From Bacteroidota bacterium (lineage in GTDB: Bacteria > Bacteroidota > Kryptoniia > Kryptoniales > JAKASW01): a stretch of DNA of 8,900 nt. The notes under the pieces were generated by a model. It was not told the origin of the DNA. It ran no database searches and was given only the letters and a program-made list of their open reading frames with translations. The stretch covers positions 1 to 8,900 of the forward strand of contig JAJYOS010000210.1 in assembly GCA_021796055.1 (NCBI GenBank), given 5' to 3'. The position numbers and the translations under genes are program-made. Shown in pieces: positions 3,411 to 5,103 of the stretch. The first letter of the stretch is position 1; each line of letters starts with the position of its first letter.

Positions 3411-3611
3411 CTACCGGTCAACTCTTTTCGTTCCGGTCCGGCTGTTTCGATCGGGCGAGATCTTCATCGTGTACGATTTCAACTCAAAGAAAAAAGCTAC
3501 GATGACGAGTATCGCGATAATCGGAAGAGTGAAATCCAATCTGTCCGTGAAAGACAATATCTTGACGGAGGATGAGTCCTGAATGGCGGTTTGCAGTAAG
3601 GAGAGCGTCAT
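3411..3611 (-). CDS. Small single-helix membrane protein coupled to cytochrome b, candidate bc-complex subunit
   Basis: This 66-residue protein is read from ATG 3611, which shares one base with the TGA of the cytochrome b gene (TGATG), so translation should be coupled. The sequence is a polar N-terminus of about 27 residues, one clear transmembrane helix at about 28-44 (FTLPIIAILVIVAFFFEL) ending in Glu-Leu-Lys, and a basic, Arg-rich tail (DRNSRTGTKRVDR) likely to be cytoplasmic. I do not recognise a family. The same frame stays open upstream through the cytochrome b gene, but that part is an out-of-frame shadow and the real gene is the 3' end. By position and form it could be a small subunit like those of b6f complexes, or supply a final helix that the fused cytochrome b lacks. 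It contains no Cys or His, so it cannot bind haem itself. Confidence 0.65.
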   Translation of the reverse strand: MTLSLLQTAIQDSSSVKILSFTDRLDFTLPIIAILVIVAFFFELKSYTMKISPDRNSRTGTKRVDR

Positions 3612-4657
3612 CAGTGAATTTTCATGGAGATATCTCCGAAGACGGTCATTGCAATCAGGTAAACCAGCACCGCTATCCCGAAGAGAGTAAATAGGGTGCT
3701 CTTTTCGCCCTTCGCCGATTTGCGGTCGAGGATGGGTATCGCCAGCCACACCAGTGCGCCCAGCGTGATGCTTCCCATGGCAACGGCCCTTGAATATATT
3801 CTGAGACTCTGATACATGAATAGAAAATACCACATCGGTTTGGTCCCTGCCGGCGCAGGCTGAAGAGGGTTGACTTTTGAACCCAAATTTGCAGGAAATA
3901 CCGTAGCAAACGTTAGCAGGACTGCCAATCCGACCGTCCAAACGGCTGCGTCCTTCAGCAAGTGATCCGGAAAAAACCTCGTGTGCCTGTCGTAGCTCGA
4001 CTGTGAAATGGGCACGCTCGAACCAAAGACCTGGCCAAGAAACACATGCAAGACGATAAGAGTCAGAGTCAGAAGAGGCAGGACGACCGTGTGCAGCGTA
4101 AACATTCTGTGCAGAGTAGCTGCGCCGACATCGGAGCCGCCCATCAGGACTCTTGATAGGTAGCCGCCGATAATCGGCAGCACACGCGGAGTATTCACCC
4201 CTATCTTCGTCGCAAAGTAGGACAAAGTAGTCCACGGAAGCAGGTATCCGGTGAATGCAAATGCCAGTATCAGGGCCAACGTCAGGGCACCTATTATCCA
4301 CATCGCTTCGCGCGGTTTCCGGTATGCTTTCGTGAAGTAGGTGGAGAACATGTGCACCAGGACTACCGCGATCAGAAAATTGGCATTCCAGAAGTGAATC
4401 GATCTTATTAACCAGCCGTAGTTCACCTTTTCCATTATGAATCTGACCGATTCGTTGGCTGACGAGGGAGTGGGAGAATAGTAGAAGGCCAGCAGTATTC
4501 CCGTCACTATCTGCACCACGACTAGGAAAAGCGCGAGGCCGCCGAAGTAATACCATACAGTGTATTTGTGTTGAGGGACGGTCTTCTGTCGAATCCAATT
4601 ACGAAGGGGCCCGATGTCTGCGCGTTCCTCTATGAACCGAATTAGTCTACGTTTCAT
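3611..4657 (-). CDS. petB: Cytochrome b (b6-type with fused subunit IV) of a bc-type quinol-oxidising complex
   Basis: This is the di-haem membrane subunit that oxidises (mena)quinol together with the Rieske protein. Numbered from ATG 4657 (348 aa), helix B has His88 and His102 and helix D has His189 and His204. The 15-residue step in helix D is the b6 type (mitochondrial cytochrome b has 14). GYLLPW follows in helix C at 138-143. After helix D, three hydrophobic segments (about 239-255, 291-311 and 325-342) form the subunit-IV part, so about seven helices in all. Oddities: the Qo motif is PMWY (274-277) instead of PEWY, and Tyr37 stands where b6 has the Cys that binds haem c(i/n). Starts at TTG 4666 (overlapping the Rieske TGA) and GTG 4660 are possible, but ATG 4657 with GAGGG upstream is preferred. 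The downstream 66-aa gene overlaps its stop. The family call is very firm; activity is uncertain because of the motif. Confidence 0.92.
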   Translation of the reverse strand: MKRRLIRFIEERADIGPLRNWIRQKTVPQHKYTVWYYFGGLALFLVVVQIVTGILLAFYYSPTPSSANESVRFIMEKVNYGWLIRSIHFWNANFLIAVVLVHMFSTYFTKAYRKPREAMWIIGALTLALILAFAFTGYLLPWTTLSYFATKIGVNTPRVLPIIGGYLSRVLMGGSDVGAATLHRMFTLHTVVLPLLTLTLIVLHVFLGQVFGSSVPISQSSYDRHTRFFPDHLLKDAAVWTVGLAVLLTFATVFPANLGSKVNPLQPAPAGTKPMWYFLFMYQSLRIYSRAVAMGSITLGALVWLAIPILDRKSAKGEKSTLFTLFGIAVLVYLIAMTVFGDISMKIH

Positions 4658-4662
4658 CACCC

Positions 4663-5103
4663 TCAAACAGTTTTCGCCGGTGCTGAGACATAGATCTTGT
4701 CGCCCTCGACAGACACGTCATATTCCTCGAGCGGGCGCTCTGCCGGTCCCCTCAGAACCCTGCCGCTGATGCTAAATTCGCTCCCATGACAGTTGCAGTG
4801 GAAGTAATCTCCAACCGGCCTGAATGAAACTGTGCAGCCCAGGTCGGTGCACTTTGCCGACAAAGACCTGTAATTGCCGTTTGGCAGTCTCACAAGTACC
4901 GCGGCCCGGTCAAGAAGCCTGAAGAACTTTGCGGAGTTGAGGTTCATCTCTTCTGCAGTAGCGACAAAGATTCTGCTCTGCTCGTCCGGGGTGACGGACG
5001 GTGGGTCGAAAAATCTTAGAATGGGATAAATTACATAAACCGTAATTGCTGTAATTCCGCCCGCAAGAATCCGGTTCAGGAATTGTCTTCTAGTCGATGC
5101 CAT
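4663..5103 (-). CDS. petC: Rieske iron-sulfur protein with altered cluster-binding box I (CTDLGC)
   Basis: This is the high-potential [2Fe-2S] subunit of the bc-type complex, 146 aa, from ATG 5103. The N-terminus has TRRQFL (4-9), a Tat-type twin-arginine motif, and one hydrophobic anchor at about 12-29; such Rieske proteins are exported folded and keep this helix as anchor. The cluster-binding region is otherwise standard: box II is HCNCHGSEF (102-110) with Cys103, Cys105 and His106, then GRVLRGPAERPL with the Pro-loop. Box I is Cys85-Thr-Asp87-Leu-Gly-Cys90, where the family has Cys-Thr-His-Leu-Gly-Cys. The His that ligands the outer iron and faces the quinol is therefore Asp (codon GAC, one base from CAC). 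Both disulfide Cys are kept. It is followed directly by cytochrome b and preceded by a 66-nt gap with no promoter I can defend. Identity is certain; whether a normal cluster forms is open. Confidence 0.92.
   Translation of the reverse strand: MASTRRQFLNRILAGGITAITVYVIYPILRFFDPPSVTPDEQSRIFVATAEEMNLNSAKFFRLLDRAAVLVRLPNGNYRSLSAKCTDLGCTVSFRPVGDYFHCNCHGSEFSISGRVLRGPAERPLEEYDVSVEGDKIYVSAPAKTV

Follow-up and report, generated by a model that had tools for sequence, protein, structure and literature searches.

An aspartate at a cluster-ligand position of a Rieske protein, paired with loss of the Qo-motif glutamate from its cytochrome b, in a small clade of uncultured Bacteroidetes

Introduction

The two histidines of the Rieske [2Fe-2S] cluster are regarded as fixed, and engineered replacements usually destroy the protein. 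In the portions of the literature cited here, all Rieske proteins considered in one study carry two histidine and two cysteine ligands (PMC12606649), and the histidines ligate through N-delta (PMC2946596). In the bc1 complex of R. capsulatus, box I of the Rieske subunit comprises C133, H135 and C138, box II includes C155 and H156, and mutation of a ligand histidine disrupts the subunit (PMC10583091). In the ARF protein of S. solfataricus, exchanging the box I histidine for cysteine fails to assemble a cluster, and the corresponding box II exchange yields an assembled cluster of low potential (PMC2946596). Carboxylate ligation is known from NfnI, whose [2Fe-2S] cluster, bound by one aspartate and three cysteines, has an unusually high potential of +80 mV (PMC12606649).

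The partner cytochrome b contributes a highly conserved acidic residue at the second position of its Qo motif. In R. capsulatus, this glutamate (E295) and Rieske H156 are presumed to accept the protons, and each forms a hydrogen bond to stigmatellin; with valine in place of the glutamate the enzyme stays active, but additional removal of H276 abolishes function, and organisms without a protonable residue at this position have been reported (PMC10583091). The identity of the second Qo-motif residue is reported to correlate with the potentials of the cofactors and the type of quinone (PMC9162462), and low-potential quinones accompany lower-potential Rieske proteins (PMC12954380).

Here, we describe a locus within the window, the whole 8,900-nucleotide stretch of DNA that was analysed, in which both positions have changed. 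An earlier note, made from the sequence alone, had pointed to an aspartate in box I of the encoded Rieske protein. In the open-access literature, taken mostly as titles and the beginnings of abstracts, we found no precedent for a natural aspartate-ligated Rieske protein.

Results

The Rieske gene (4663-5103, minus strand) encodes a 146-residue protein composed of an N-terminal membrane anchor and a Rieske domain, and it scores 48.2 bits against the Pfam Rieske profile (PF00355, cut-off 20.3). Box I reads CTDLGC (C85-T-D87-L-G-C90; 4834-4851, minus strand), with the Asp87 codon GAC (4843-4845, minus strand) at the place of the ligand histidine. Translation of 4663-5103 thus agrees with the earlier note on the motif, the residue and the codon, although the position it gave for box I, 4838-4857, was a few bases off. 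Box II is the standard CNCHGS (C103-N-C105-H106-G-S; 4780-4797, minus strand), retaining the ligand Cys103 (4795-4797, minus strand) and the quinol-facing His106 (4786-4788, minus strand). As the note had also observed, box II, the disulfide cysteines and the remainder of the fold are all kept in the sequence. It had further taken the box I histidine to be exposed to quinol; in excerpts describing bc1, it is the box II histidine, kept here, that hydrogen-bonds the quinol analogue (PMC10583091).

The protein therefore belongs to the Rieske domain family by sequence profile and fold, but lacks the full Cys/His plus Cys/His ligand set, since three of the four ligands are present and Asp87 replaces the box I histidine. 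The three other ligands and the disulfide pair Cys90/Cys105, predicted from sequence, were found in all five clusters of Asp-type proteins. An AlphaFold2 model built from a 19-sequence alignment (mean pLDDT 78.6, pTM 0.60) had the Rieske domain of C. tepidum 8hn2 as its best solved match; the model supports the fold only and not the metal site.

We determined how widely the aspartate is shared. The window differs from genome G000 at 29 of 8,900 positions, 20 of which lie in the outermost 300 bases at either end; the Rieske gene has no difference and the cytochrome b gene has one (4054), and the two sequences agree in having GAC. Among 100 genomes searched for orthologues, each of the 12 other same-genus genomes contained one, at 56-84% identity. 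One of these (G006, 84%) also carries CTDLGC with GAC and the remaining 11 carry CTH[LM]GC, so that the aspartate occurs in two of the 13 same-genus genomes. A protein database search returned 65 matches, with aspartate in five clusters (P0001-P0005) and histidine in 60, and a second search with P0004 as query returned 46, of which nine were new and all nine had histidine. Overall, 5 of 74 distinct database proteins have aspartate and 69 have histidine. The five Asp proteins are 70-88% identical to one another and outrank every His protein in both searches. Because the aspartate recurs in a second same-genus genome and in three further database clusters, sequencing error is ruled out and, by these sequence comparisons, the residue is real. 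The bacteria that carry it form a small set of uncultured Bacteroidetes, and a single origin, judged from two genomes and five protein clusters, fits the data best.

We next turn to the partner subunit, a 351-residue cytochrome b encoded at 3611-4666 on the minus strand. All four haem histidines are present, and a 12-sequence alignment inspected by eye contained two haem histidine pairs with a spacing of 14 in the second. This spacing is that of b6-type cytochrome b. The Qo motif reads PMWY (3827-3838, minus strand), the Glu278 of relatives being replaced by Met278 (ATG; 3833-3835, minus strand), and Thr275, Tyr285 and Ser287 are also changed beside it. The Qo region of the G000 and G006 proteins is GTKPMWYFLFMYQS, with GTKPMWYFLF as compared with GIKPEWYFLF in His-type proteins. 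PEWY was found in the nine His-type orthologues that reach the motif (in G004 and G010 the gene runs off the contig) and in one G000 paralogue, whereas all four Asp-type cases with an assignable partner have PMWY. The note's expectation of a PMWY-type partner was borne out, and the search it proposed for CTDLGC beside such a cytochrome b recovered the pair again in G006. What the note overlooked is that PMWY is not the usual state in this family: close relatives have PEWY.

Among the best 120 of 3219 cytochrome b database matches, 110 have PEWY, 2 PEWF, 4 PMWY, 2 PAWY and 1 PVWY, and one (P0113) is without the motif. The four PMWY proteins in this set are those of the window species, of G006, and two paired with the Asp-type Rieske proteins P0004 and P0005; the latter pairings were deduced from equal-sized contigs (54275 and 10283), while those of the window, G000 and G006 were read directly. 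Glutamate occupies the second Qo-motif position in 43 of 43 close relatives, and a protonable residue is absent there from the Asp clade, which has methionine. Such a residue is a usual rather than a strict feature of Rieske/cytochrome b complexes, because non-protonable variants are reported elsewhere, in the available part of PMC10583091. On these alignments PMWY is derived, having arisen in the lineage that acquired the aspartate; cluster ligand and Qo glutamate changed in one lineage and stayed changed.

To place these substitutions among all conserved positions, we considered columns at least 90% conserved in 44 His-type orthologues. Of 58 such Rieske columns, the Asp clade departs at two, Pro67 and His87, the former being replaced by alanine, which three other sequences share. 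Across 164 cytochrome b columns it departs at six (T186H/Q, I275T, E278M, F285Y, T287S and Y345D), four of which fall within residues 275-287, a clustering matched in 0.44% of random placements when any 13-residue window was allowed. Control groups of nearest sequences showed no departures for Rieske. For cytochrome b, other groups of four in the close set reached at most three departures against six for the Asp clade; across the whole listed set, control groups reached six and the Asp clade three. The number of changed columns is not exceptional; their location is. Thr275 and Tyr285 are not unique to the clade, since the distant PEWF protein P0168 shares both.

Separately, residue 186 of cytochrome b (window 4109-4111), six residues before a haem ligand, is an invariant threonine in the 43 close relatives and is histidine in three and glutamine in one member of the Asp clade, where it might offer a replacement proton path. 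Three cytochrome b relatives at 49-50% identity (P0134, P0146 and P0158) have PAWY or PVWY; the Asp clade is thus not alone in having a non-protonable Qo motif, and in these relatives the glutamate may have been lost beside a normal His-type Rieske protein. Scans of genomic DNA, which detect exact KPxWYF alone, found KPMWYF in 3 of 391 genomes (G000, G006 and G132), the G132 match lying outside any cytochrome b. For KPAWYF and KPVWYF, 381 genomes gave 18 matches: five were in an open frame within 3-kb loci, none of them cytochrome b-like, the remaining 13 had no frame by the motif test, and none of the 18 was accompanied by a Rieske-like motif. These exact-motif scans thus yielded no independent PMWY case on which to test coupling of the aspartate and methionine.

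We then asked whether the genes remain under selection. Between G000 and G006, dN/dS (NG86) was 0.050 for Rieske and 0.069 for cytochrome b, compared with 0.025-0.088 for seven flanking genes (an eighth, small and near-identical, was omitted); the ratios are rough because dS, at 1.8 for Rieske and 1.4 for cytochrome b, is near saturation. The cytochrome b value is slightly above those of two control pairs (0.038 and 0.051). The G000 and G006 clade had 100% bootstrap support in the flanking-gene, Rieske and cytochrome b trees, with deeper branches weakly supported. Under a fixed topology, the share of the tree taken by its stem is 11.7% for Rieske and 10.5% for cytochrome b, against 3.8-9.2% for the seven flanking genes, suggesting that any burst of change was no more than modest and gave way to constraint. 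A dN/dS near 0.05 and the retained ligands make gene decay unlikely. The dead subunit that the note had offered as an option is disfavoured by the same ratio and by the kept ligands and disulfide cysteines, and its concern that this genome might be a lone, decaying exception is answered by the other carriers and, again, by the ratio.

The neighbourhood is largely conserved. A third operon gene (3411-3611, minus strand) encodes a 66-residue membrane protein with one hydrophobic stretch, homologues of which occur in 7 of the 12 other same-genus genomes at 38-59% identity. The window order runs NAD-binding dehydrogenase, Na/Ca exchanger family protein, lipid kinase, Rieske, cytochrome b, small membrane protein, folB, folK and deoxynucleoside kinase. 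The lipid-kinase side is conserved in 11 of the 12 other same-genus stretches (not G005) and the folB side in 10, the G004 and G010 contigs ending first. Among the frames listed, no CXXCH protein was seen beside the operon except spurious ones overlapping cytochrome b, and a cytochrome c1 or f subunit could be encoded elsewhere. Rfam gave no match in the window.

Two further features of the window lie outside the operon. A 65-residue gene (1572-1769) encodes a protein identical in G000 and G006, with a pS of 0.05 where its neighbours have 0.57-0.68, possibly through recent exchange or as an assembly artefact. A heptosyltransferase-like gene (426-1565) is one 379-residue frame in G000 and two frames in the window, split near 747 at a group of four substitutions spanning no more than 25 bases.

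Both Asp genomes encode additional Rieske complexes. G000 has five Rieske-domain matches, and in each genome a CPHLGC Rieske protein adjoins a fusion of cytochrome b with cytochrome c domains (loci L052 in G000 and L060 in G006). A third G000 complex (L051, G000:C18:2000-21900) combines a CTHLQC box I and PEWY with an adjacent frame containing 11 CXXCH motifs. A COX1 homologue is present in all 13 same-genus genomes. We considered redundancy as a cause of the aspartate change and rejected it: at least one further Rieske-domain match occurs in 10 of the 11 His-type same-genus genomes, so the Asp clade does not stand out in this respect, and redundancy does not by itself explain the change.

Discussion

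The catalytic site that contains the aspartate has also lost an important acidic residue from the partner cytochrome b, and for this reason the enzyme seems rebuilt rather than broken. The explanation we favour, to which we give even chances, is that the Rieske/cytochrome b complex, of b6 type, is functional and holds a Cys2-His-Asp [2Fe-2S] cluster whose potential is lowered, its Qo site having been remodelled in the ancestor of the clade. In this lineage the box I histidine became aspartate and the Qo glutamate methionine, with the remaining ligand, disulfide and haem residues unaltered; purifying selection would later have held both changes. Asp87 would bind the outer iron through a carboxylate oxygen, which lies at the same place along the side chain as the N-delta by which histidine ligates. 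One more negative charge and one imidazole fewer would bring the potential below that of the His-type sisters, and the same ligand change would simplify its pH dependence. His106 would still accept an electron and a proton from menaquinol, and the second proton would exit by a route without the Qo-motif glutamate.

We infer the Cys2-His-Asp cluster, its potential and its catalysis from sequence and by analogy. Weighing the literature on R. capsulatus, ARF, RsrR, NfnI and quinone potentials, we take Asp87 to be most probably an iron ligand, which would give a lower potential than in the His sisters, with His106 remaining the residue that meets quinol. A working complex with an aspartate ligand would be in keeping with the tolerance of Qo glutamate replacement on its own and with the carboxylate and histidine ligation of RsrR. 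Ligand changes are nonetheless poorly tolerated, as indicated by the clusterless ARF box I mutant and the disruptive R. capsulatus histidine mutation, and a lowered potential is not certain because the Asp-ligated cluster of NfnI sits at +80 mV, as far as the cited excerpts go. The stronger statement, that evolution produced a low-potential complex of a Cys2-His-Asp Rieske protein and a Glu-less Qo site, one that still turns over quinol with re-tuned electron and proton acceptors, we hold tentatively, at slightly below even chances; the new proton exit would then possibly run through Asp87 or cytochrome b His/Gln186.

Aspartate and methionine together could equally mean that Qo catalysis has been lost. 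The complex might retain its cluster and haems, having given up bifurcated quinol oxidation to serve as a membrane electron conduit or to run in reverse, from a periplasmic donor to quinone, leaving the Qo residues free to change together. We consider this unlikely, but it is the alternative that best survives. It would account for the joint change of the ligand set, the Qo glutamate and residues 275, 285 and 287 of the same loop, and it fits the retention by both Asp genomes of the His-ligated CPHLGC Rieske protein with its cytochrome b-c fusion, and by G000 of another beside a multihaem cytochrome. However, the Qo-motif proline, tryptophan and tyrosine, the box II histidine, the GPA loop and the haem ligands are all kept, the extra Rieske proteins are equally a property of nearly all His-type sisters, and a single glutamate replacement is tolerated in bc1, according to excerpts of PMC10583091.

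It is improbable that the Rieske protein holds no cluster and is kept as a structural or assembly part. NirD-like proteins of the Rieske fold do lack the cluster ligands and metal, and nitrite reductase small subunits were among the fold matches of the present protein, which has itself lost one of four ligands, at a position where ARF tolerated no cysteine (PMC2946596, in part). The other ligands should drift in the absence of a cluster, whereas these three and both disulfide cysteines persist in all five Asp clusters across divergence of up to 30%.

We regard as quite improbable a ligand swap, in which His102 or solvent replaces the lost imidazole and Asp87 merely forms a hydrogen bond. His102 (4798-4800, minus strand), directly before the first box II cysteine, is the sole histidine of the window protein besides His106, and it is present in five of five Asp-type but only 3 of 51 His-type orthologues. 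It is, though, untied to the aspartate change, being also found in the His-type P0009 and P0012, and on their evidence it may predate that change; its side chain, beside a ligand cysteine on a strand, probably points away.

An error of sequencing or assembly, which the note had left open, or a decaying gene has a negligible chance and is rejected: CAC and GAC differ by one base, but GAC is shared by the window, G000 and G006, aspartate by three more clusters, the linked ATG is at least two bases from either glutamate codon, and dN/dS is about 0.05.

A lineage that keeps both changes under selection is a natural test of the roles of the two residues: of what share of the potential and proton coupling of the Rieske centre is owed to the second imidazole, and of whether quinol bifurcation requires the Qo glutamate. 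If the remodelled-enzyme explanation is true, a single lineage has evolved re-tuned electron and proton acceptors for quinone-based electron bifurcation.

The nearest solved structures by profile are the green-sulfur-bacterial and b6f Rieske proteins (8hn2 of C. tepidum; PetC in 2e74 and 7zxy). By fold, too, 8hn2 ranks first, and b6f-type structures align across the N-terminal anchor as well. The box I histidine is present in all five best aligned of the 86 matched structures, where the window protein has aspartate. NirD-like clusterless proteins have lost their ligands; Asp-type proteins, in the five clusters, keep three of four and both disulfide cysteines.

For the proposed ligand set, there is a likeness in RsrR of Streptomyces venezuelae, which binds a [2Fe-2S] cluster (average g 1.93) through two cysteines, one histidine and one glutamate; it is a transcription regulator, and its glutamate and histidine sit on different irons, each with a cysteine (PMC12499515, in the part available). 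In the Asp-type Rieske protein, by contrast, carboxylate and histidine would share one iron. Other bc complexes are described as differing naturally at the second position of the Qo motif (Kao & Hunte 2014, as cited in excerpts of PMC9162462 and PMC10583091), from which the Asp-type complex differs in that PMWY accompanies an altered cluster ligand.

Also close are the His-type operons of the same genus (for example those of G003 and G011, and P0010 and P0070 from the database), ready controls with standard residues. There, Rieske adjoins cytochrome b among mostly the same neighbours, with the same box II and haem histidines, at 56-64% (Rieske) and 61-72% (cytochrome b, one value from a cut gene) identity to G000. 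They pair CTH[LM]GC with GIKPEWYFLF, and the Asp-type operons pair CTDLGC with GTKPMWYFLF. As judged from these sequences, the Asp-type protein departs, in a real and conserved way, from ligands that are almost universal, and its departure is linked to the altered Qo site of its lineage, in a complex otherwise of the Rieske/cytochrome b kind.
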